Assembly (NCBI RefSeq): GCF_000427665.1
Contig: NZ_KE386572.1
Coordinates: 4,526,373 to 4,590,372 of the forward strand
Direction: 5' to 3'
DNA: 64,000 nt
DNA from: Geminicoccus roseus DSM 18922
GTDB lineage: Bacteria; Pseudomonadota; Alphaproteobacteria; Geminicoccales; Geminicoccaceae
Below the pieces are notes generated by a model. The model was not told the origin of the DNA and made no database searches. It saw only the letters and a program-made list of their open reading frames with translations. Below are positions 31,896 through 45,818 of this stretch, in pieces. Each line of letters starts with the position of its first letter. Within the stretch, counting starts at the first letter, position 1. A program made the position numbers and the translations under genes.

Positions 31896-33203
31896 TCAAC
31901 CCCGGCCCAGGAAGAGCAGGCGGCGGCGCATCCCTGCGGCGATCGGGTCCAGGACCTCTGGCGGGAAGTCGGGTGGAAGCTCCCGGACGACGCGTTCGAG
32001 GGCGGGGCCCGCGGAGCCCGCCAGGTCGTCGAAGATCGCGTGCACCACCGACCGGCTGAGGCCGGCGCGGGCGGCCGCCTGCTCGAAGTGGCGCGGGACG
32101 ATCTCGTCGACCGCATAGTGGCGGCGGTCGCCCACCGACATGGCGAGGCGCATCTGGCGCCGCTGGATCTGGCCGGCGTCGAGGCTGGGCTGGGCCGAGA
32201 GCACGTCGTAGAGCGGCGACAGGGTGAACCGGCCGCCGGCCCGCAGCGCCAGGCTGAAGTTCTTGGCGTGGCCATCGGTGGCGGCCAGCAGCCAGAACAC
32301 CAGCGTGGCGCGCAGGAACACAGCCCGGTCGGCGCCCGGCTGGTCGCTGCCCTTCAGCAGGTCCAGGACCTCGGCCATCCCTGGTCCCCCGTCCGCCTGG
32401 TACTTGCGCGTGGGCGGGACCGACAGGGCCTGGCAGCAATCCTCCTGCGGAAGCCGGAGCAGCCGGCCGTCCCGGGTCCAGCGCCGGTCGAAGCGTTCCA
32501 CCACCAGGGCGCGGGTGCCGGCAAAGGCCTGCATGGAGACCCGGGCGCTCGGCAGCCCCAGCGCCTCGGTCAGCCGCAGGCAGAGGAACTCGTTCTCGAT
32601 GCTGTGGGAAAGGTCGATGCCGTTGGACAGCCGGCCGATCGCGGGCTTCAGGATATGGGTGGTAGCGGTGGCGCCGGCGGGCTTGCACCAGCGCCCGTCC
32701 AGGAAGGTGAGGGCGGTCTTCTCCTGGGCGCCGGCGATGGAGATCCGGAAGTCCAGGTCGCGGTCCAGGCCCAGCGGGGCCGCGGACAGGTCGTCCAGCA
32801 GCCGGGCGATCCCGGCTTCGTCCAGCGGACGCGCCTCGATGCCGCCGGCCGGGCCCGGCTCCACCCCTTCCTCCAGGAACTGCAGCGCACCGACGCAGTC
32901 ATGGCCGATCGCCGCCAGCAGACTGTAGGCGTCGGCGCCCTCGGCTCCCATCCGCTCCGCGACGCGGCGACGGATCCGCTCGTCGTCCGGCAGCAGGTTC
33001 TCGAGCACCGCGCGGACCGGCGCGCCGTGGAAGCGCTCCTCGCGCAGCGGCATGGACAGCGAGACCGGGATGGCGTCGGGCAGCTCCAGCCAGCCGGGAT
33101 TATAGACGAACGCGATCGCCCCGTCCGGCTCGCGGCGCAGCAGGCCGACCCGGCGGCCGTTCATCCAGACGCCCAGCCGCTGCGAGCGGCGGCGCCGGCC
33201 CAT
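31896..33203 (-). CDS. hipA: HipA-family serine/threonine kinase toxin
   Basis: A 435-residue HipA-type kinase. The N-terminal subdomain has a G-V-L-L fold; the P-loop-like segment is IAGAQEKTAL (about residues 156-165), the ATP-binding Lys in HILKP (186), the catalytic Asp in TDGHAKNFS (310) and the metal-binding Asp in LSPLYDV (333). All key residues seem present, so the toxin is probably active. HipA kinases phosphorylate aminoacyl-tRNA synthetases such as GltX and arrest growth. The ATG shares one base with the hipB stop (TGATG). Confidence 0.9.
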   Translation of the reverse strand: MGRRRRSQRLGVWMNGRRVGLLRREPDGAIAFVYNPGWLELPDAIPVSLSMPLREERFHGAPVRAVLENLLPDDERIRRRVAERMGAEGADAYSLLAAIGHDCVGALQFLEEGVEPGPAGGIEARPLDEAGIARLLDDLSAAPLGLDRDLDFRISIAGAQEKTALTFLDGRWCKPAGATATTHILKPAIGRLSNGIDLSHSIENEFLCLRLTEALGLPSARVSMQAFAGTRALVVERFDRRWTRDGRLLRLPQEDCCQALSVPPTRKYQADGGPGMAEVLDLLKGSDQPGADRAVFLRATLVFWLLAATDGHAKNFSLALRAGGRFTLSPLYDVLSAQPSLDAGQIQRRQMRLAMSVGDRRHYAVDEIVPRHFEQAAARAGLSRSVVHAIFDDLAGSAGPALERVVRELPPDFPPEVLDPIAAGMRRRLLFLGRG

Positions 33204-33448
33204 CAGAACATGTCCTCGATGTCCGATGCCTGGCTGCGGGGACGGACCGCCAGCTCCAGGTCGAGGGCGGCCAGCAGGTCCAGGATCGTGTCCAGCCGGG
33301 TGCCGGGTTCCCCGGCCTCGACAGACGAGACCGTCGCCTGGCGCAGGCCGCTCGCCGCCGCCAGGGCGCTCTGGGTCAGCTTCAGGCGGCGCCGCTGGGC
33401 GCGCAGGATGGCTCCCAGCTGGTCGGGACGGCGGGCTATCCGGTCCAT
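33203..33448 (-). CDS. hipB: HipB-type antitoxin, XRE family
   Basis: An 81-residue protein with an XRE helix-turn-helix (RRRLKLTQSALAAASGLRQA recognition region) and a short C-terminus ending in EDMF that would sit in the toxin's cleft. It neutralises HipA and represses the operon by binding the three inverted repeats just upstream. GGAGGGAGC precedes the ATG. Confidence 0.9.
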   Translation of the reverse strand: MDRIARRPDQLGAILRAQRRRLKLTQSALAAASGLRQATVSSVEAGEPGTRLDTILDLLAALDLELAVRPRSQASDIEDMF

Positions 33449-33468
33449 GCTCCCTCCGGCGCGGCATG

Positions 33469-33541: not shown

Positions 33542-35512
33542 TTACACGTCCAGCTCGGCGACGCTGGCGGCATTGGCCTGGATGAACGCCAGCCGCAGCT
33601 CGGGCTTGCGCCCCATCAGCTCCTCGACCAGCTGGCCGGTGGTCTTGCCCTCCAGGTCCTCCAGGCGGACCTGCAGCATCCGGCGCCGGGACGGATCCAT
33701 GGTGGTTTCCTTGAGCTGGCTCGGGTTCATCTCGCCCAGGCCCTTGAACCGGCCGATGTCCACGTTCTTCTTGTTCTTGAAGACCGTGGCCAGGATCCGG
33801 TCCTTGTCCTTGTCGTCCCGGGCATAGGCCACCGTGCTGCCGTGGGAGAGCCGGTAGAGCGGCGGCTGCGCCAGGTAGAGATGGCCGGTCTCCACCAGCC
33901 GGCCCATCTCGCGGTAGAAGAAGGTCATCAGCAGGGCCGCGATGTGCGCGCCGTCGACATCGGCGTCGGTCATGATCACGACCTTGTCGTAGCGCAGTTC
34001 GTCGCTGCGGAAATGCTTGCCCGAGCCGCAGCCGAGCGCCGTCACCAGGTCGACCAGCTCCTTGTTCTGGGCGAGCTTGTCGGCGGTGGCCGAGGCGACG
34101 TTCAGGATCTTGCCGCGCAGCGGCAGGATCGCCTGGGTTTCGCGGTTGCGGGCCTGCTTAGCTGAACCGCCGGCGCTGTCGCCCTCGACCAGGAAGATCT
34201 CGGTGCCGTCGCGCCCTTCCCGGGAGCAGTCGGCCAGCTTGCCCGGCAGGCGCAGCCGGCGGGTCTCGCTCTTGCGCTGGACGTCCTTCTGCTTCTTGCG
34301 GGCCAGCCGCTCGTCGGCCCGGTCGCAGACATGGTCGAGCAGCCGGCTGGCGGCGGCCGGATGCGAGGCGAGCCAGGTCTCGAACCGGTCCTTCAGCCGC
34401 GATTCGATCGGGCGGGTGATCTGCGCGGAGACCAGCCGCTCCTTGGTCTGACCCTGGAACTGCGGCTGGGGGATGAAGGCGGACAGCATCAGCACCGCAC
34501 CGCCCTGCACATCCTCGGCGACCAGGTTGCCGGCGCGCTTGCCGCTGCCCACCCGGTCGGCATGGGCTTTCAGGCCCTTGAGCAGCGCGCCGCGCAGGCC
34601 CTGCTCATGGGTCCCGCCGAGCGGGGTCGGGATCGTGTTGCAGTAGAAGCCCTCATAGCCTTCCTCGTCGATCGGCCAGGCCACCGCCCACTCGATCCGC
34701 CCGGCCGCCTCGGGCAGCTCGGCCTCGCCGGTGAACGCGTCCTCGACCACCCGTTCCCGGTTCTCCAGCTGCGCCGCCAGGAAGTCGGCCAGGCCGTTGG
34801 GGAAGTGGAAGGTCTCGGTGGCCGGGGTCCTCGCGCCGTTGATCAGTTCCGGCGCGCAGGACCAGCGGATCTCCACGCCCTTGAACAGATAGGCCTTGCT
34901 GCGCGCCATCTTGTGCAGGGCGGCCGGCGAGAATGCCGCGTCGTCGCCGAAGATCTCGGTGTCCGGGACGAAGGTCAGGGTGGTGCCGCGCCGGTTCGGG
35001 GCGTTGCCGATGTTCTCGATCGCACCCTGCGGCACGCCGCGCGAGTAGACCTGCCGGAACAGCTTGCGGTCGCGGGCGACCTCGACGACCAGCTCCGAGG
35101 ACAGCGCGTTCACCACCGACACGCCGACGCCGTGCAGGCCGCCGGAGGTCTGGTAGGCCTTGTTGGAGAACTTGCCGCCCGAGTGCAGCGTGGTGAGGAT
35201 CACCTCCAGCGCCGACTTGTCCGGGAATTTCGGATGCGGGTCGATCGGGATGCCGCGGCCGTTGTCGCGGATCGTCACTCTCGTGGCCGAGTCCAGGCTG
35301 ATCTCGATGCGGTCGGCATGGCCCGCGACCGCCTCGTCCATCGCGTTGTCCAGCACCTCGGCGACCAGGTGGTGCAGGGCCCGCTCGTCGGTGCCGCCGA
35401 TATACATGCCCGGGCGGCGCCGGACCGGCTCCAGCCCCTCCAGCACCTCGATGTCGTGCGCGGTGTACTCGCCGCGCGTCTCGCCGCTCTTCTGCTCGAA
35501 CAGGTCGCTCAT
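33542..35512 (-). CDS. parE: DNA topoisomerase IV subunit B
   Basis: A 656-residue type IIA topoisomerase ATPase subunit. It has the GHKL motifs (EVLDNAMDEAVAGHAD, DNGRGIPIDPHPK, GLHGVGVSVVNALS), the transducer, then the TOPRIM domain with EGDSAGG, PLRGKILNV and DADVDGAHI and the C-terminal RFKGLGEMNP. The length and the absence of a GyrB-type insertion favour ParE over GyrB. It works with ParC to decatenate chromosomes. The hipBA operon follows immediately on the same strand. Confidence 0.9.
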   Translation of the reverse strand: MSDLFEQKSGETRGEYTAHDIEVLEGLEPVRRRPGMYIGGTDERALHHLVAEVLDNAMDEAVAGHADRIEISLDSATRVTIRDNGRGIPIDPHPKFPDKSALEVILTTLHSGGKFSNKAYQTSGGLHGVGVSVVNALSSELVVEVARDRKLFRQVYSRGVPQGAIENIGNAPNRRGTTLTFVPDTEIFGDDAAFSPAALHKMARSKAYLFKGVEIRWSCAPELINGARTPATETFHFPNGLADFLAAQLENRERVVEDAFTGEAELPEAAGRIEWAVAWPIDEEGYEGFYCNTIPTPLGGTHEQGLRGALLKGLKAHADRVGSGKRAGNLVAEDVQGGAVLMLSAFIPQPQFQGQTKERLVSAQITRPIESRLKDRFETWLASHPAAASRLLDHVCDRADERLARKKQKDVQRKSETRRLRLPGKLADCSREGRDGTEIFLVEGDSAGGSAKQARNRETQAILPLRGKILNVASATADKLAQNKELVDLVTALGCGSGKHFRSDELRYDKVVIMTDADVDGAHIAALLMTFFYREMGRLVETGHLYLAQPPLYRLSHGSTVAYARDDKDKDRILATVFKNKKNVDIGRFKGLGEMNPSQLKETTMDPSRRRMLQVRLEDLEGKTTGQLVEELMGRKPELRLAFIQANAASVAELDV

Positions 35513-35522
35513 GCTCGCTTCC

Positions 35523-35544
35523 GGCCGGCCCGATCGGGCCGGCC
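35523..35544. terminator. 22-bp perfect palindrome between the GS paralogue and parE
   Basis: GGCCGGCCCGA pairs with TCGGGCCGGCC without a true loop. It could terminate transcription from the GS paralogue ahead of parE. It is 10 bases upstream of the parE start, so it could also lower parE translation. Confidence 0.45.
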
Positions 35545-35625
35545 CATCAGGGTAGGTCGTTGCCGCCGCTCAAACTGCGCAGCGCAAGAAGCGTACCGGA
35601 AGCGTTCGCGTCAAGCCGAGCCCGC

Positions 35626-37032
35626 TCAGTTCGACCAGTACAGCCTGAGTTCGGCGGGATGCGGGATCGCCGCGATCTCGTCGGACTGGATCCGCTTGAG
35701 CGTCAGGTAGGTGTCGACCATGCGCGGGGAGAACACCTCGTCGCCGGTGAGGACCTCGCGGTGGCGGTCGAGCTCGTCCAGCGCCTCGTCCAGGGTCCGG
35801 GGCAGGTGGCGCAGCGCATGTTCCTCGGGCGGCAGGTCGTACAGATTGCGGTCGAGCGGGTCGTCCGGCTCCAGCTTGCGGTCGATCCCGTCCAGCCCGG
35901 CCATCAGCGTCGCCCCGATCGCCAGGTAGGGGTCGGCCAGGGGATCGGGGAAGCGCAGCTCCAGCCGCTTCTGGTCCGGCCGGGCGGTAAGCGGGATGCG
36001 CACCGCCGCGGTGCGGTTGTTGGCGGCATAGGCCAGGACGGTCGGCACCTCCTCGCCCGGCCGGAGGCGCCGGTAGGAGTTCGTCGACGGGTTGGTGAAG
36101 GCGGCGAGCATCCGGGCATGTTCCAGGATGCCGGCCATGAACGACAGGCAGAGCGGGCTGAGATCGGCATAGGAGGAGCCGTGGAACAGCGGCCGCCCGG
36201 CGGCGAACGCCGCCACCGACATCACCAGGTCGACGCCATGCTCGTCCTGGGACGGCTTGGGCAGGAAGGTGGCGGTCTTGCCGTAGCCGGCGGCCACGCT
36301 GCGGACCACGTAGCGGGCGAGCTGCAGGCGGTCGGCGGCGATCAGCGCATCCGTCGGCGGCAGCGTCAGCACATGCTGGCAGGCGCCGCGGCCATGGCCA
36401 TGGGTCATCCCCTGGATGCCGCAGCCGGCCAGGATCGTGGCGACCTCGCTGCGCAGGTCGGAGAAATGGTCGGGCGGCGGCGCGGCCAGGGCCGCATGGC
36501 GCGGCACCGGGCGGTGACCGGGATTGCCGCCCTGGTAGGCCAGGCCGGCGGCACTGGGCGCTTCCATGGCGCTCAGCCGGTGGCCGACCCGGTAGGGCTC
36601 GACATCGAACTGGGCGTCGTCGAACAGCGAGAAGCCGATCTCCAGGCCGACCGCGATCCGGTCGGCGCCGATCTTGCGCTGCACGTGCTCCAGGCTGCGC
36701 TGCAGGGTGCTGCGCGGGCAGGTGTCGTAGGCATGCCCGGTGCCGGCTTCCGCCGCCGAGCAGAACAGCACCAGCGTCGGCTGCGCCGCGAACGGGTCGA
36801 TGAACCAGGACGAAGGGTCCGGGCGCAGCACCGGGTCCGGCTCGGTGGGCGCATGCCAGCCGGGGATGGCCGAGCCATCGATCATCAACCCGTCGGTGAA
36901 CAGGGCCGGGTCGAGCCCGCTGGTCTCGATCGCGACCTGCCGGACATGGCCCAGCGGATCGGTGAAGCGGAGATTGCAGATGCGGATGCGATTTTCTTCG
37001 ATCGCCTGCATCAAGGGTTCGACATCGGACAA
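35626..37032 (-). CDS. Glutamine synthetase-like protein with lost metal ligands
   Basis: A 468-residue GSI-fold protein colinear with the neighbouring authentic GlnA. Kept: the FIDPF and DGSAIPGW blocks, NSYRRL, NRTAAVRIP, ELRFPDP and NLYDLPPEE. Lost compared with GlnA (E. coli numbering): Glu131 is Gly (EIGF for EAEF), Glu212 is Gly and Glu220 is His (THGHGRGACQH for [11 protein letters not shown]), and the MHCHQ block around His269 is LVMSV. Three n1-metal ligands and an n2 ligand are thus gone, so glutamine synthesis is unlikely. The start is TTG (37030-37032) with GGGAGG upstream. A terminator separates it from glnA. Confidence 0.85.
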   Translation of the reverse strand: MSDVEPLMQAIEENRIRICNLRFTDPLGHVRQVAIETSGLDPALFTDGLMIDGSAIPGWHAPTEPDPVLRPDPSSWFIDPFAAQPTLVLFCSAAEAGTGHAYDTCPRSTLQRSLEHVQRKIGADRIAVGLEIGFSLFDDAQFDVEPYRVGHRLSAMEAPSAAGLAYQGGNPGHRPVPRHAALAAPPPDHFSDLRSEVATILAGCGIQGMTHGHGRGACQHVLTLPPTDALIAADRLQLARYVVRSVAAGYGKTATFLPKPSQDEHGVDLVMSVAAFAAGRPLFHGSSYADLSPLCLSFMAGILEHARMLAAFTNPSTNSYRRLRPGEEVPTVLAYAANNRTAAVRIPLTARPDQKRLELRFPDPLADPYLAIGATLMAGLDGIDRKLEPDDPLDRNLYDLPPEEHALRHLPRTLDEALDELDRHREVLTGDEVFSPRMVDTYLTLKRIQSDEIAAIPHPAELRLYWSN

Positions 37033-37104
37033 CGGTCTGCCTCCCGGCGCGCATCGGCCGTCCTGCCGCCGCACCATCGCTGTCGCCCGAGTAACCATTC
37101 CCAC

Positions 37105-37138
37105 GAAAAAGAAAAGGGGCGGCCCGAAGACCGCCCCC
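37105..37138 (-). terminator. Rho-independent terminator of glnA
   Basis: Read on the minus strand, GGGGCGGTC pairs with GGCCGCCCC around a TTCG tetraloop and is followed by TTTTCTTTTT. It lies 29 bases past the glnA stop, so glnA and the downstream GS paralogue are separate transcription units. Confidence 0.92.
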
Positions 37139-37166
37139 GTTCCACGCCGGCCGGAGCCGGTGCGGC

Positions 37167-38594
37167 TCAGCAGTCGTAGTAGAGCACGAACTCGTAGGGG
37201 TGCGGGCGCAGGGCCAGTGCCTCGACCTCGTTGGTGCGCTTCATGGCGAGATAGTTGTCGATGAACTCCTTGGAGAACACCTCGCCCTGCAGCAGGAACT
37301 CGTGGTCGTCCTCGAGCGCCTGCAGCGCCTGGGAGAGCGAGCCCGGCACGGTCGGGATGTGCGCCAGCTCTTCCGGCGGCAGGTCGTAGATGTTCTTGTC
37401 GGTAGCTTCGCCCGGGTCGATCTTGTTCCTGATGCCGTCGAGGCCCGCCATCAGCATCGCCGAGAAGGCGATGTAGGGGTTGCACGACGGGTCGGGGCAG
37501 CGGAACTCGACCCGCTTGGCCTTGGGGCTGTTAGAGTACATCGGGATGCGGCAGGCCGCCGAGCGGTTGCGCGCCGACCAGGCCAGGTTGACGGGGGCCT
37601 CGTAGCCCGGGACCAGGCGGCGATAGGAGTTGGTGGTCGGCGCCGCGAAGGCCAGCAGGGCCGGGGCGTGCTTGAGCAGGCCGCCGATGTACCATTTGCA
37701 CATGTCGGACAGGCCGTGCTCCTTGTCGCCGGCGAACAAGGGCTTGCCCTCGCTCCAGATCGACTGGTGGCAGTGCATGCCCGAGCCGTTGTCGCCATGG
37801 AGCGGCTTCGGCATGAACGTCGCGGACTTGCCGGCCTTGGCCGCCACGTTCTTCACGACGTACTTGTACTTCATCTGGTGGTCGGCCATCGCCAGCAGCG
37901 AATCGAACTTCATGTCGATTTCGCACTGGCCGGCAGTCGCCACCTCATGGTGCTGGCATTCGACCGTAAGCCCGATCTCGATCATGGTCAGCGCCATGGC
38001 CGTGCGCAGGTCGTGCAGCGTGTCGGTCGGCGCGCAGGGGAAGTAGCCTTCCTTGGGCCGGATCTTGTAGCCGAGGTTCGGGCCCTCGGCCTTGCGCATG
38101 TTCCACCAGCCCTCGACGCTGTCGACGAGGTAGGAGCCGGAATTGATGTCCTGGCCGAACTGCACGTTGTCGAACACGAAGAACTCGGCCTCGGGGCCGA
38201 AGAACGCCGTGTCGCCGATGCCGGTGGACTTCAGGTAGGCCTCGGCCTTCTTGGCGATGCCGCGCGGGTCACGGTCGTAGAACTCGCCGGTCACCGGGTC
38301 GACGACGTCGGCGATCATCACCAGCGTCTTGTGCTCGTAGAACGGGTCGATGAACGCGGTGGTGGGATCGGGCATCAAGAGCATGTCCGAGGCTTCGATG
38401 GTCTTGAAGCCGCGCACGGACGAGCCGTCGAAGCCCAGGCCTTCCTCGATCTGGTCCTGCTCGAAGACGGCCGCCGGATAGCTGATATGCTGCCAGGTGC
38501 CGGGGACATCCGTCAGGCGGATGTCGATCATCTGAACGCCATTGTCCTTGATGGCCTTCATGACATCGGCAGACGTCTTACAACCCAGAGTCAT
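37167..38594 (-). CDS. glnA: Glutamine synthetase type I
   Basis: A 475-residue GSI. All catalytic blocks are intact: [57 protein letters not shown], and the adenylylation-site region NIYDLPPEE. It makes glutamine from glutamate, ammonia and ATP as a dodecamer and should be controlled by adenylylation through GlnE and P-II. The ATG at 38594 has AGGAAGG eight bases upstream; the frame runs on to 38639. The C-terminus (EFVLYYDC) is the normal GSI end. Confidence 0.95.
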
Positions 38595-39002
38595 ACTCGT
38601 TGCCTTCCTCATCCTTGACGGATGGTTCTTGGTTTCCACCTAGCCCACGCCGCCCCGCCTTGGCCGGGACGACCTCGAACGAACAAAAACGACGGTCCGG
38701 ACCTCAGGGTTCGAGCCGCCGGGACATCCACCGCTCAGGCGGCACCTTGCCGAGCTGCCGCGAGCCAGTCGGCAGGCTCATGAAGGCCGAGGCGCTCGAG
38801 AGCAGGCCGGAAGCACCCCTCCGGCTCGCTTGAGCGGCCTTCTTAAGCACCGGCCACGCCTTTGAGAAGGCGGCTCGGCGGATCGGAAATCCGGGAGAGC
38901 CGCCCCCTTTGCGAACGCCGGCGGCACCCATGCCGACCCCGGTCCCCCGGGTGCCGGGCCCTCGCCGGACCCCGCACCGTCAAGATCAGACGGAACCCAG
39001 CC
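38595..39002. other. Intergenic region between glnII and glnA
   Basis: About 400 bases without a convincing gene. It should hold the glnA promoter, but I found no clear sigma-54 or sigma-70 boxes. Several imperfect GC-rich inverted repeats are present, including GCCGGA/TCCGGC near 38806-38825. Confidence 0.5.
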
Positions 39003-40052
39003 TCACGCAGCCGCGGCCACGTCGCCCTTCTCGGCGCCGGTCGACACCGAGGCGATCGTCTTCAGGATCTGCGAGGCGATCTGGTAGGGGTCGCCCTGGG
39101 AGTTCGGGCGGCGATCCTCGAGATAGCCCTTGTACTCGTTGCGCACGAAGCTGTGCGGCACGCGGATGGAGGCGCCGCGATCGGCCACGCCATAGCTGAA
39201 CTTGTTCCACGGCGCCGTCTCATGCTTGCCGGTCAGACGCATGTGGTTGTCCGGGCCATAGACGGCGATGTGGTCGTCGAGGTTGGTCTCGAACGCCTTC
39301 ATCAGCTGCTCGAAATAGGCCTTGCCGCCGACCTCGCGCAGGTAGGACGTCGAGAAGTTGCAGTGCATGCCGGAGCCGTTCCAGTCGGTATCGCCCAGCG
39401 GCTTGCAATGGAACTCGATGTCGATGCCGTACTTCTCGGTGAGGCGCAGCAGCAGGTAGCGCGCCATCCACATCTCGTCGGCCGCCCGCTTGGAGCCCTT
39501 GCCGAAGATCTGGAACTCCCACTGTCCCTTCGCCACCTCGGCGTTGATGCCCTCGTGGTTGATGCCGGCGGCCAGGCAGATGTCGAGATGCTCCTCGACG
39601 ATCGTGCGCGCCATGTCGCCGACATTCTTGTAGCCGACGCCGGTGTAGTAGGGGCCCTGCGGTGCCGGGAAGCCCTGCTCGGGGAAGCCGAGCGGCCGGC
39701 CGTTCTTGTAGAAGAAGTATTCCTGCTCGAAGCCGAACCAGGCGCCGTCGTCATCGAGGATGGTGGCGCGGCTGTTCGACGGATGCGGGGTCACGCCGTC
39801 CGGCATCATCACTTCGCAGAGGACCAGCACGCCGTTGGTGCGGACCGGGTCCGGGAACACGCGGACCGGCTTCAGCACGCAGTCGGAGCTGTGCCCCTCG
39901 GCCTGCAGCGTGGAGCTGCCATCGAAGCCCCAGAGCGGCAGTTCATCCAGCGACGGGAAGGAGTCGAACTCCTTGATCTGGGTCTTGCCGCGGAGGTTTG
40001 GCACCGGGGTGTAGCCGTCGAGCCAAATATACTCCAGCTTGTACTTCGTCAT
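39003..40052 (-). CDS. glnII: Glutamine synthetase type II
   Basis: A 349-residue eukaryotic-type GSII: LEYIWLDG, ELPLWGFDGSST, WFGFEQEYFF, GINAEVAKGQWEFQI, GSGMHCNFST, and GASIRVP are present. It assimilates ammonium as a homo-octamer or decamer and is not adenylylated. GSII next to GSI is typical of rhizobia and relatives. A sigma-54 type promoter lies about 100 bases upstream, and a divergent GstI-like gene follows, which in rhizobia inhibits glnII translation. Confidence 0.95.
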   Translation of the reverse strand: MTKYKLEYIWLDGYTPVPNLRGKTQIKEFDSFPSLDELPLWGFDGSSTLQAEGHSSDCVLKPVRVFPDPVRTNGVLVLCEVMMPDGVTPHPSNSRATILDDDGAWFGFEQEYFFYKNGRPLGFPEQGFPAPQGPYYTGVGYKNVGDMARTIVEEHLDICLAAGINHEGINAEVAKGQWEFQIFGKGSKRAADEMWMARYLLLRLTEKYGIDIEFHCKPLGDTDWNGSGMHCNFSTSYLREVGGKAYFEQLMKAFETNLDDHIAVYGPDNHMRLTGKHETAPWNKFSYGVADRGASIRVPHSFVRNEYKGYLEDRRPNSQGDPYQIASQILKTIASVSTGAEKGDVAAAA

Positions 40053-40154
40053 GGCCGCTCTCTCGTAGGAAGTTGATGCGGGGAAGGGCAGCGTCCTGCG
40101 TCGTGCCTGCCCCCGTGTTGTGCATGCGTGGCCTGCGGTGGCTGCCCAAAATCA

Positions 40155-40170
40155 TGCAGGAACCATGCCA
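40155..40170 (-). promoter_or_regulatory. Sigma-54 promoter of glnII
   Basis: On the minus strand TGGCATGGTTCCTGCA matches TGGCACG-N4-TTGCA with the GG and GC doublets at the right 16-base spacing. It is about 100 bases before the glnII ATG. Confidence 0.8.
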
Positions 40171-40274
40171 AGCCGGAGGGTGCGCCTGCCGCGTCGCGAA
40201 GTCCGGCACGGTCGGCGGCCCGAAAGGGGCGGCGCCGGCTGGATCCTTGCCGCCCCCCGCCGGTTGGTCGGGGG

Positions 40275-40298
40275 AAGTCTGCATAGTGCAGCAGACTT
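40275..40298. repeat. Nested inverted repeat between glnII and gstI
   Basis: AAGTCTGC and GCAGACTT flank an 8-base spacer, and inside them CTGCA-TAG-TGCAG forms a second dyad. It lies about 105 bases upstream of the glnII sigma-54 promoter and could be a regulator site or an mRNA stem. Confidence 0.55.
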
Positions 40299-40400
40299 CA
40301 GCGCCGAAGTACTCGCCGATAGGCAGCGAATGCTTCGTAAAAATGCAGCGCGAGCACTTGCCTACTAGTTAGGCGATCAGAGGTTTTAAAATAGGCATAT

Positions 40401-40417
40401 TGCACATTCGCCGTGCA
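40401..40417. promoter_or_regulatory. NtrC-like binding site
   Basis: TGCACATTCGCCGTGCA, a 17-base dyad with TGCAC and GTGCA arms, matches the NtrC consensus TGCAC-N7-GTGCA. It is 230 bases upstream of the glnII sigma-54 promoter, a normal enhancer distance, and 61 bases upstream of the gstI-like start codon, so it could activate glnII and also act on gstI. Confidence 0.75.
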
Positions 40418-40477
40418 TGCCCCATAGAAGCCCTCTGTACCAAGCGCCGGATGTTCCCCTCGATGGAGTGACCCACC

Positions 40478-40696
40478 ATGACCAGAAGCCTTCACCAGGA
40501 TTCCGCCAAGATCTACCAGTTCCCCGTCCGGGCCAAACCCGCGGGTGCGAGCTTTCGCGGACCGTCCCTGCCAGTTACCGACATCCGGACAACGCAGTAC
40601 GTCCATGTCGATTGCGGTGCCGGCTGGTATCACGAGGCGGCGGTACAGGATGCCGAGCGGGCAGCCAGGCGCAGGAACGCTGGTCGCGGCGACTGA
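40478..40696 (+). CDS. gstI: GstI-like protein (DUF2735), glutamine synthetase translation inhibitor
   Basis: A 72-residue protein with the DUF2735 pattern: an N-terminal AKIYQFPVRAK segment and a C-terminal GAGWYHEAAVQDAERA helix. In Rhizobium a small protein of this type, GstI, is transcribed divergently from glnII and blocks its translation under nitrogen excess. The position here, divergent from glnII with an NtrC-like site between, is the same. The assignment rests on context and the YQFP/WYHEAA motifs. Confidence 0.72.
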   Translation: MTRSLHQDSAKIYQFPVRAKPAGASFRGPSLPVTDIRTTQYVHVDCGAGWYHEAAVQDAERAARRRNAGRGD

Positions 40697-40762
40697 TCTT
40701 GGATGCGCCAACAGCGCGACTTGCAGCTTCCTGGGCTGAACAGGGCCTGCGGGTCACACGAA

Positions 40763-40794
40763 AAAGGCCGCCGAGTAGCCCCTCGGCGGCCTTT
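40763..40794. terminator. Bidirectional terminator between gstI and glnB
   Basis: AAAGGCCGCCGAG pairs with CTCGGCGGCCTTT around a six-base loop, giving A-tract and T-tract on the two sides. It serves both convergent genes. Confidence 0.92.
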
Positions 40795-40885
40795 GTCTTG
40801 AACCTTGCCCCACCCAGGAGGTCTGGCGCCTCTCTCGGCTGAACCGGCCCGGTCGGCAGACCGTCCGGTCGGGACAGGTGAACGA

Positions 40886-41377
<492 letters not shown>

Positions 41378-41476
41378 TCAAGATATAGGCAGAACGCCAT
41401 CGGATTGGGCAAATTCGCAGCCCGCCACTGAGGGCTTGACGAACCCGCCGCGTCCAGGCATTCCCCAGCCCGGGAT

Positions 41477-41553
41477 GGCGGGCGTAGCTCAGTCGGTAGA
41501 GCGCTAGGTTGTGGTCCTGGATGTCGCCGGTTCGAGTCCGGTCGCTCGCCCCA
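41477..41553 (+). tRNA. tRNA-His (GTG)
   Basis: A full cloverleaf: extra G at -1 (41477) paired with C73, acceptor stem GCGGGCG/CGCTCGC, D-arm GCTC/GAGC, anticodon stem CTAGG/CCTGG with loop TTGTGGT (anticodon GTG at 41511-41513), T-arm with TTCGAGT, and an encoded CCA end. The encoded G-1 is diagnostic of tRNA-His. Confidence 0.97.
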
Positions 41554-41984
41554 CCCCCCTGCTTCTTTTGTGATCCGCACCGCCACTGCCACCAAGTGGC
41601 AGGTTCCTGGGTGGCGATCGCGCTGCCTCCCTGTTGCTGATCCGCTGAACCTGACACACCAATGATGGGACTGGCCGCTTGCGCGGGCGGTCCTTTCGGT
41701 GCTGCCGGTACCGTCTCCCGTCATGGCCACCCGGCCTCCCAAGACTGATGCCCGGCCGGCGCCGGCCAATCCTCGGAACATGACGACTTGAGGCAACGCG
41801 GGCCGGACACGGTCCAGGAAAAGATGCAGCAAGCAATCCCGCATGGGCCGAGCATGATGGAATAGTTCTAATTCAATGAAGTGTTGGGATCAGGTTGCGG
41901 TGGAGGGCATCCGTCCCTAGGCCAGCCGGAACGAGCGAACCCGTCGCTCGCCGCCGTACCTGTCCACTGCAAGGGGCCGTCTCG
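41554..41984. other. Intergenic region before the iron-linked operon
   Basis: No credible gene. It contains a GGCCGGCGCCGGCC palindrome (41754-41767), an AT-rich TGGAATAGTTCTAATT stretch (41858-41873) with a GAA-TAG-TTC dyad that resembles an Irr/ICE half-site pair, and a CGAGCGA/TCGCTCG stem near 41933-41949 shortly upstream of the imelysin start. The AT-rich stretch is the best place for the operon promoter. Confidence 0.5.
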
Positions 41985-43250
<1,266 letters not shown>

Positions 43251-43263
43251 TCCGGGATCCGCG

Positions 43264-44691
43264 ATGAAGGCCGCCAGGCGACCGTTTCTCCTGGGCGCCG
43301 GCGCGTTCCTTGCCGGCGCCGCCCTGCCGGAGACAGGCCGAAGCGGGCCGCTCGCCCGGCCCCTAATGCCCACCGGCCGCACCGTCGAGCACTGGCTGGT
43401 GGCGGCCGAGCGCATGGTCCGCATCCCGGCCGACGCGGGACCCGAGGTGCCGGCCTGGACCTTCGGCCCGGAGCCACTGCCGATGATCCGGCTGCAGCGG
43501 GGCGATTCCCTGCGCGTCCGGGCCGAAAACCGCCTCGACCAGCTCATCTCGATCCACTGGCACGGCATCCGGGTGCCGAACGCCATGGACGGCGTGCCCT
43601 ACCTGACCCAGGACCCGATCCGGACCGGCGGCAGCTTCGACTACACCTTCACGCCGCCCGATACCGGGACGTTCTTCTTCCACACCCACTGCAACACCAT
43701 CGAGCAGCTGGGCCGGGGGCTGGCCGGCGTGCTGATCGTCGAGGGCGACGAACTGGTGCGGCACGACGCGGACTTGGTCTGCGTGCTGCGCGACTGGCGG
43801 ATCGACGGGCAGGGTGGCTTTGCCGAGTTCACCAGCAACGCCGCCGCCGCCAAGGCCGGCACGTTCGGCCAGGTGCGCACCGTCAACGATCGGGTCGAGC
43901 CGGTCCTGGAGGTGCCGGCCGGCGGCGAAGTCCGCCTGCGCATCCTCAACATCGACCCGACCCGGATCGCCTTGCTGGGGTTGGAGGGCACCCCGGCCGC
44001 CGTGATCGCCATCGACGGCAACGGTCTTCCCCCAGTGCCGCTGGAAAGCTGGCGGCTGGGCCCAGCCATGCGGATCGACCTGTCGGTGCGGGCGCCCGGC
44101 CCCGGCGAGGAGGCGGTCCTCTATGACTATTTCTCGGCCGAACCGGTCCCGCTGGCGAGGCTGCGAGGCATGGGCCCACGTCTGGATCGCGGCAGGTTCG
44201 ACCCGGCACCCCTGATCCCGTCGGACTTCCCGGCGCCCGACCTGGAGAAGGCCGAGACCTTCCGCCTGACCTTCCAGTCCACCGCGGTTGCGAGCGACCT
44301 GGTCCTGCCCGACGGTCAGGTGCTGCGCTATGCCGACAGCATCTGCCTGTCCAGCGCCACCCTGTGGGCGATCGACCGCAAGACCTGGCCGGAAGCCGGG
44401 CACCAGCAGCTTCCGCCGCCTCTGTTCGAGCTGGTGAAGGGCAGGAGCTACGTGATCGAGCTGGTCAACCTGAGTCAGTACCAGCACCCGATCCACCTGC
44501 ATGGCGTCACCTTCCAGGTGCTGGACCCGCGCCAGGGCGAGTCCGGCCAGCGGGCCGACACGGTGCTGCTCGGCCCGCGCGACCGCGTCCGGATCGCCTT
44601 TGTCGCCGACAATCCGGGTGACTGGATGCTCCACTGCCACATCATCGAGCACCAGGAGACCGGCATGATGGGCTGGTTCCGGATCGCATGA
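43264..44691 (+). CDS. Multicopper oxidase
   Basis: A 475-residue laccase/ferroxidase-type protein with a Tat-like signal (MKAARRPFLLGAGAFLAGAA). All four copper-binding blocks are intact: HWHG, HTHCN, HPIHLHG and HCHIIEHQETGM, giving the type 1 site and the trinuclear cluster. It would oxidise a periplasmic substrate with O2, plausibly Fe(II) given the neighbours. It starts 13 bases after the imelysin stop and its stop overlaps the next start (ATGA). Confidence 0.92.
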   Translation: MKAARRPFLLGAGAFLAGAALPETGRSGPLARPLMPTGRTVEHWLVAAERMVRIPADAGPEVPAWTFGPEPLPMIRLQRGDSLRVRAENRLDQLISIHWHGIRVPNAMDGVPYLTQDPIRTGGSFDYTFTPPDTGTFFFHTHCNTIEQLGRGLAGVLIVEGDELVRHDADLVCVLRDWRIDGQGGFAEFTSNAAAAKAGTFGQVRTVNDRVEPVLEVPAGGEVRLRILNIDPTRIALLGLEGTPAAVIAIDGNGLPPVPLESWRLGPAMRIDLSVRAPGPGEEAVLYDYFSAEPVPLARLRGMGPRLDRGRFDPAPLIPSDFPAPDLEKAETFRLTFQSTAVASDLVLPDGQVLRYADSICLSSATLWAIDRKTWPEAGHQQLPPPLFELVKGRSYVIELVNLSQYQHPIHLHGVTFQVLDPRQGESGQRADTVLLGPRDRVRIAFVADNPGDWMLHCHIIEHQETGMMGWFRIA

Positions 44692-45818
44692 GAACCGCTC
44701 TGCGCGCCTGCGCCGCGCTGATGATCCTGGTGGGTCTCGGCGGCGGCGTTTCGCCGACCTCCGCCCGCGATCTGGATGCGGTGATCGGCGAAAGCCTGTT
44801 CGACCGGGTCTGGACCGTGGCCGGAGCCTCGAACCGGGGCAGCGACGGGCTGGGCCCGCTGTTCAACGCCCGGGCCTGCGTCAGCTGCCATGCCGGGGGA
44901 GGTGCCGGCGAGCTGGAGGATGGGCGCGGGCTCGTTCTCCGCTTTCCCGACGATCCCCATTATGGCCGCCAGCTGCAGACCGGGGCGGTGCAGGGGCAGG
45001 AGGCGGAAGGCGGGCTCGCCGTGTCCTGGCGCCGGGAGGAACGGGTGCTGGACGACGGGACGCGCGTGGAGTTGCGGGCGCCGGTCTGGCGGATCGAGGA
45101 GCCCGGGGCCGGCCCGGTGCCGGCCCACGGGTCGCTCCGCCTGGCGCCCTCGCTCGCCGGGCTCGGCCAGGTCGAAACCGCCCTGGGTGCGGCGACCCAG
45201 GAGGAGGCGGCCGGCCGCGGCTTTGGCCTCAAGGCCGACCATGCCAGCCTGGCGGGCCCTGTCCGGGAGGCGCTCCTGCTGGATCTGGGGCTCTCGACCC
45301 CGGAGCAGCCCGCACCCTGGGGAGACTGCACCGCGCTCCAGCCGACCTGCCGGACCGGGCCGCATGGCGTCGAGCCGGGCGACGCGGGTGCCGAGCTGTC
45401 GCCGACCATCGTGAACGCGCTCCTGGCCTATCTGCGAGACCTGCCGGCACCCCGGCCGCTCGCTGGCCCGGATCCGGAAGGCGAGCGTCTGTTCATGCAG
45501 AGCGGCTGCGCCGCCTGCCATCAGCCGAGGCTGGGCGAGCTTGTCGCCTTTTCCGACTATCGGAGCCACGACCTGGGCGAAGGCCTGGCGGACGGCGATC
45601 CGGCCGATCCCCAGGCCGCGTTCTGGCGTACCGCTCCTCTGTGGGGCCTCGGACGCAAGCTGGCGAATGGCGGCTTTCTGCTGCACGACGGCCGCGCCCG
45701 CGACGCCACGGAAGCGATCTTGTGGCATGGCGGCGAGGCCGAGGGCGCCGTCGCGGCCTTTTCGGTGATGCCGGCTGCGGCGCGGGCGCGGCTCCTGAAA
45801 TTCCTCGAAGGACTCTGA
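44688..45818 (+). CDS. Di-haem c-type cytochrome/oxidoreductase (DUF1111)
   Basis: A 376-residue secreted protein with a Sec signal and two haem-binding motifs, CVSCH (about residue 64) and CAACH (about 268). The GLGPLFNARACVSCH, GLGQVE and APLWGLG blocks are those of the DUF1111 'di-haem oxidoreductase' family. Haem would be attached in the periplasm. It commonly sits between two imelysin genes in proteobacteria, and here it follows the copper oxidase, suggesting electron transfer linked to iron handling. Confidence 0.9.
   Translation: MRTALRACAALMILVGLGGGVSPTSARDLDAVIGESLFDRVWTVAGASNRGSDGLGPLFNARACVSCHAGGGAGELEDGRGLVLRFPDDPHYGRQLQTGAVQGQEAEGGLAVSWRREERVLDDGTRVELRAPVWRIEEPGAGPVPAHGSLRLAPSLAGLGQVETALGAATQEEAAGRGFGLKADHASLAGPVREALLLDLGLSTPEQPAPWGDCTALQPTCRTGPHGVEPGDAGAELSPTIVNALLAYLRDLPAPRPLAGPDPEGERLFMQSGCAACHQPRLGELVAFSDYRSHDLGEGLADGDPADPQAAFWRTAPLWGLGRKLANGGFLLHDGRARDATEAILWHGGEAEGAVAAFSVMPAAARARLLKFLEGL

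Follow-up and report, generated by a model that had tools for sequence, protein, structure and literature searches.

Glutamine synthetase (GS) is among the most studied regulated enzymes. The GS-like proteins GlnA2, GlnA3, GlnA4, PuuA and GmaS are active, metal-dependent ligases, and the original work on the lens protein lengsin is reportedly that of Wyatt (2006) and Grassi (2006). The active site of GS is formed between subunits, with the D50 loop as the sole active-site element provided by the adjacent subunit, and in Firmicutes the feedback-inhibited enzyme regulates GlnR and TnrA, using the D50 loop and the E flap as a docking surface (PMC9249791). The actinobacterial proteins GlnA2-4 are GS-like paralogues without GS activity that act as ligases on other amines (PMC9397018). 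Lengsin, from the vertebrate lens, is an inactive, dodecameric class I GS remnant that persisted after GSII took over (PMC2667176). The window analysed here, a stretch of 64,000 nucleotides from Geminicoccus roseus DSM 18922 (contig NZ_KE386572.1), carries next to glnA a gene for a class I GS (GSI)-fold protein of 468 amino acids without a functional metal site, as judged from residue alignment and predicted fold and referred to as pseudo-GlnA in the following. A literature search for inactive bacterial GSI proteins or Geminicoccus GS, which left out most subscription journals, returned no report.

Lengsin is the closest analogue, since it is likewise a class I GS that was displaced by another GS and lost its activity while keeping the GSI fold. 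It differs in being a vertebrate, tissue-specific protein with a changed N-terminal region, whereas pseudo-GlnA is a full-length bacterial GSI-beta protein with a well-kept N-terminal domain, which occurs order-wide and lies beside glnB-glnA in several genomes. Lengsin keeps the dodecamer; in the sequence of pseudo-GlnA, the inter-ring thong shows 0.82 of the canonical conservation. The sequence match of pseudo-GlnA to 2j9i is weak (E = 2e-4). As an analogue of the lengsin kind, and not a member of a homologous family, pseudo-GlnA was found to be displaced (by tree and AU test), to have lost catalytic residues and to be constrained in dN/dS. With the GlnA proteins of E. coli and Salmonella (GSI-beta) it shares the fold, length, D50, substrate arginines and Tyr397, but it lacks the n1 site, and N264, E327, H269, H271, F225 and E207 are eroded in its clade. 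GlnA2-4, PuuA and GmaS are GS-like as well but are active, metal-dependent ligases, and the four other GS-like proteins of the genome retain all six metal ligands; assignment of pseudo-GlnA to these gamma-glutamyl-amide ligases was rejected, because its scores lie far below the cut-offs and its two-metal site is not intact. In the GS-GlnR/TnrA system of Firmicutes, a GS-fold oligomer likewise acts in signalling; that enzyme is active and of the GSI-alpha type, however, whereas pseudo-GlnA is dead, of the GSI-beta type and has partly lost the E flap.

The pseudo-glnA gene (35626-37032, minus strand) is an open frame of 468 codons plus stop with a TTG start codon, preceded at a distance of 7 nt by the ribosome-binding site GGGAGG (37040-37045, minus strand). 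Both elements are conserved in the sister species, and the intact frame and good ribosome-binding site reported in the sequence-only reading were thus borne out. The Pfam families Gln-synt_N and Gln-synt_C span the full protein (PF00120, 294 bits; PF03951, 65 bits). Against the NCBIfam model TIGR00653 (GlnA), it scores 396.1 bits and remains below the cut-off of 429.15, as compared to 678 for the neighbouring GlnA, and it stays far under the cut-offs for gamma-glutamyl ligases (GGputSyn, 171 vs 650; type III, 190 vs 470). The predicted structure (mean pLDDT 76, pTM 0.82) superimposes on E. coli GS with a Z score of 52.1 and an rmsd of 2.4 across 414 residues, with the active-site loops and the C-terminal tail poorly defined. 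For genes of this kind, "glutamine synthetase" is an easy label for an annotation pipeline.

All genes of the surrounding block are encoded on the minus strand. Its first gene (40886-41224) is presumably glnB, encoding PII, as recognised from its sequence and its conserved position beside glnA. It is followed by a gene for a GlnII-type GS of 349 amino acids (39003-40052), which the only other species of the genus carries as well, and by glnA (37167-38594, with the ATG at MTLGC and the longest reading frame extending to 38639), whose product is a GSI-beta GS of a different, non-alphaproteobacterial lineage with an intact active site. Three GS-fold genes of different types, GlnII-type, GlnA and pseudo-GlnA, thus stand in a row; among the loci examined, the GlnII-type gene was seen only in the genus of the window, and it scores 392 against a GlnII cut-off of 500. 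Downstream of pseudo-glnA lies a gene (33542-35512) that we take from its sequence to encode a parE/gyrB-like topoisomerase subunit. In many of the order's genomes it adjoins pseudo-glnA. The genes glnA and pseudo-glnA are adjacent in only some of the genomes. Further genes recognised by eye comprise a HipA-like kinase gene (31896-33467, minus strand), a possible toxin-antitoxin remnant, and a plus-strand run (41895-45818) with genes for an imelysin-type protein, a multicopper oxidase and a di-haem cytochrome-like protein, which may together serve the uptake of iron or copper.

An intrinsic terminator was located 3' of glnA (37105-37138, minus strand), consisting of a 10-bp GC stem (37138-37115) and a T tract. 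The terminator scan as a whole was not above chance (3 found vs 3.1 expected), and the call is therefore based on position, strength and conservation: the sister species retains the hairpin although its bases differ, and in two further genomes a GC hairpin followed by T can be seen by eye at the same place. Because this terminator lies between glnA and pseudo-glnA, the two genes do not simply form one transcript, and pseudo-glnA is probably expressed apart from glnA or via read-through. A promoter scan of positions 35300-41500 yielded no sigma-70-like site and was uninformative.

Residue numbers and the roles of single residues follow the Salmonella GS scheme, which we take from established knowledge of GS. 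In the alignment, pseudo-GlnA of the window has lost all ligands of the n1 metal (E131G, E212G, E220V) and, of the n2 ligands, H269 (H269V), whereas E129 and E357 are kept, so that two of the six metal ligands are retained. Y179A, N264H, H271S and S273A are further changes; D50, R321, R339, R344, R355, R359 and the adenylylation residue Tyr397 are retained. This agrees with the earlier claim that Glu131, Glu212, Glu220 and the His269 block are missing while the arginines and the Tyr397 region remain. The description of both metal sites as destroyed holds completely for n1, but goes too far for n2, where two of three ligands are left in the sequence. The loss is specific to pseudo-GlnA, because E129, E131, E212, E220, H269 and E357 are all present in the neighbouring GlnA and in the genome's four remaining GSI-like paralogues.

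Orthologues were searched for in 31 genomes of the order, which we take to be Geminicoccales, 22 of them of high quality. They were found in 28 genomes, including all 22 of high quality; a 29th copy is disrupted only by an assembly gap, and the two genomes without pseudo-GlnA are 70% and 86% complete. One further copy, from a Geminicoccaceae metagenome genome, was obtained in a contig search and is identical to an existing member; this identity is the basis for taking the order to be Geminicoccales. Outside the order, searching a sample of 289 genomes of the class with a profile of the clade gave 25 newly fetched best loci, all of which keep every checked catalytic residue, and a plasmid collection contained only matches below 60% identity, the best ten of which resemble ordinary GlnA by annotation or score. 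Among the 28 complete orthologues, E212 is lost and N264 changed in every member and E131 is lost in 27; the n1 site is intact in none and the full set of n2 ligands in six, with zero to five of the six metal ligands left per member. The changes are thus conserved in one clade, as the sequence-only reading had proposed to check. Erosion across the clade also affects E207, F225, H269, H271, S273, E327 and Y179, with position 269 occupied, depending on the subclade, by H, A, V, G, E, R, Y, S, N or F. D50, G51, G56 and D64, by contrast, are invariant, as are R321, R339, R344, R359 and Y397 (28/28 each). Neither equivalent ligands from other positions nor a lone, frameshifted degenerate copy was found: among newly conserved D, E, H or C residues, only D289 and C294 reach at least 90%, neither of them in a metal-ligand segment, and no in-frame stop occurs in the 28 orthologues. 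The member L033 (genome G004) retains five of the six metal ligands, lacking only E212; as an intermediate, it may still be capable of metal binding and is, judged by these residues, the best candidate for residual activity. In a fast-evolving subgroup (L118, L119 and L120, from G011, G020 and G010), part of the central (Y179) loop is deleted and H211 is missing, but E220 and H269 are still present; the single pair measured in this subgroup (G011/G020) gave a dN/dS of 0.31.

Selection was assessed by pairwise dN/dS (Nei-Gojobori) in seven species pairs for pseudo-GlnA, six of which were also used for GlnA. The values range from 0.06 to 0.31 for pseudo-GlnA and from 0.04 to 0.16 for GlnA, and in several pairs pseudo-GlnA (0.06-0.10) comes near to GlnA itself (0.04-0.08); together with the orthologues in 29 of 31 genomes, they uphold the earlier view that the gene is under selection. 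For GlnA, constraint on the catalytic segments exceeds that on the remainder in five of six pairs, whereas those of pseudo-GlnA evolve like the remainder or slightly faster (dN/dS 0.06-0.42). The ratio of the identity within the clade to that among canonical enzymes is 0.45-0.67 in the segments with E129/E131, the Y179 loop, E212/E220, N264/H269 and the E flap, as compared to 0.93-1.07 in residues 1-49, 67-104, 189-204 and 338-362, 0.80 in the D50 loop, 0.82 in the inter-ring thong and 0.78 in the Y397 loop. By this measure of conservation, the architecture of pseudo-GlnA is preserved and its catalysis is not. The stretch 67-104 is slightly more conserved in the pseudo-GlnA clade than in canonical enzymes and contains the motif DPFxAQPTL (77-85; 79-87 in the window protein), which is invariant or nearly so, specific to the clade and possibly part of a new contact surface.

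Residues 210 and 220, which flank the lost n1 site, form an R/E pair in eight members and a D-E/R-K pair in 11, giving opposite charges of either polarity in 19 of the 28 and like charges in none. In a scan of all column pairs, this pair ranked first among opposite-charge swaps, with a limited degree of independence, as the swap corresponds to only about two state changes on the tree. Our reading is that, in most members, an internal salt bridge has taken the place of the metal, with the contact suggested by strand geometry; the window protein has a neutral G/V pair at these positions.

In two trees, the pseudo-GlnA clade is monophyletic with a support of 100. The more careful tree nests it in proteobacterial GlnA (100/100) as the sister of alphaproteobacterial GlnA (94/87), and due to long branches its exact place beside the alphaproteobacterial clade is less certain than this nesting. 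The order's active GlnA falls elsewhere, together with copies from Bradyrhizobium and with Vicinamibacteria, Actinomycetota and others. The sequence-only reading had treated pseudo-GlnA as a paralogue of the adjacent GlnA, but a recent tandem duplication followed by degeneration is exceedingly improbable, even though the two genes are adjacent and on the same strand, as pseudo-GlnA is only ~36% identical to its neighbour vs 41-45% to GlnA of other alphaproteobacteria, and forcing it together with the active GlnA of the order was rejected under the model used (lnL -104.5, p-AU 7.6e-7), leaving the neighbouring active GlnA as the incomer. Several genomes show the gene order glnB-glnA-pseudo-glnA, and in another alphaproteobacterium glnB is directly followed by the native glnA. 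Pseudo-GlnA is thus very probably the native, vertically inherited alphaproteobacterial GlnA, displaced by a glnA of another lineage and with its n1 site destroyed in all members. In the simplest history, whose direction of transfer is inferred from tree and locus order, a foreign glnA appears to have arrived next to glnB and taken over, while the native gene stayed and lost its catalytic site.

As to its function, pseudo-GlnA is most likely a non-catalytic GS-fold regulator or a partner subunit of GlnA. The best explanation overall, to which we give about an even chance, is that the displaced native GlnA was kept as a GS-type subunit without catalysis of its own, which serves to tune nitrogen assimilation. 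Our first choice of mechanism, held tentatively and at somewhat less than even chances, is that pseudo-GlnA and GlnA would assemble into mixed rings, in which the pseudo-subunit, itself with a dead site, would lend its D50 loop to the active site of the adjacent subunit. Through its retained Tyr397 loop and its cluster of arginines, it could still be read by GlnE or by ligands of the glutamate/glutamine type. This partner-subunit model fits because D50, G51, G56 and D64 are invariant, whereas residues acting within the same subunit are eroded at the n1 metal (E131, E212, E220), adenine (E207, F225) and ammonium (E212, Y179) sites. Against mixed rings stand the low identity of the two proteins, the adjacency of their genes in only some genomes, the terminator between them in the window and the fact that the same-subunit residues R321, R339, R344, R359 and E357 are kept as well, so that D50 may instead have been retained for the sake of a homo-oligomer or of the fold. 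The model in its full form, with pseudo-GlnA as an obligate non-catalytic partner in mixed dodecamers, completing its neighbours' sites with its D50 loop, carrying a salt bridge at its own site in most members and controlling GS throughout the order by subunit composition, would be rather unlikely.

The main rival, unlikely in its turn, is a homo-oligomeric pseudo-GS that serves as a scaffold, sensor or decoy, either binding glutamate, glutamine or a phosphorylated ligand via its arginines or engaging GlnE via the Tyr397 loop and thereby buffering the adenylylation of GlnA; it could also act as a decoy for PII. It draws on the invariance of the four arginines and Y397, on the clade-specific DPFxAQPTL motif, on the occurrence of GlnE in all 31 genomes and on the origin of the two proteins, since an alphaproteobacterial GlnE would have had the native pseudo-GlnA, and not the incoming GlnA, as its original partner. 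However, taken as a whole, the Y397 loop shows no unusual conservation, and the erosion of the adenine/ATP residues E207, F225, H271 and S273 makes ATP an unlikely ligand.

That pseudo-GlnA is an enzyme whose remodelled pocket supports a different chemistry, possibly one independent of metal, is quite improbable. Even the catalytic segments do not evolve neutrally, and the n2 ligands kept in six members and the five ligands of L033 would be in line with such an activity; but no member has an intact n1 site, the residues of the pocket vary from one subclade to another, unlike those of a conserved active site, as exemplified by the ten residue types at position 269, and the pocket regions contain no newly fixed residue of a ligand type. 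A functionless relic in slow decay, to which the lineage-dependent erosion of the catalytic site and the one fast group might point, is strongly disfavoured and very improbable, given the absence of in-frame stops, the retention in all high-quality genomes and dN/dS values close to those of GlnA.

Returning to a pseudo-GlnA kept as a non-catalytic subunit, a dead GS homologue that is retained across a whole order, and next to the incomer in several genomes, represents a natural experiment on the non-catalytic roles of GS subunits, and makes testable both the regulation of GS dodecamers by inactive partners and the action of GlnE or PII on pseudo-subunits. It indicates that an essential enzyme, once displaced, can live on as a pseudoenzyme, with intermediates of graded ligand loss across the order. 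Its order-wide retention under selection suggests the gain of a non-enzymatic role in nitrogen control.
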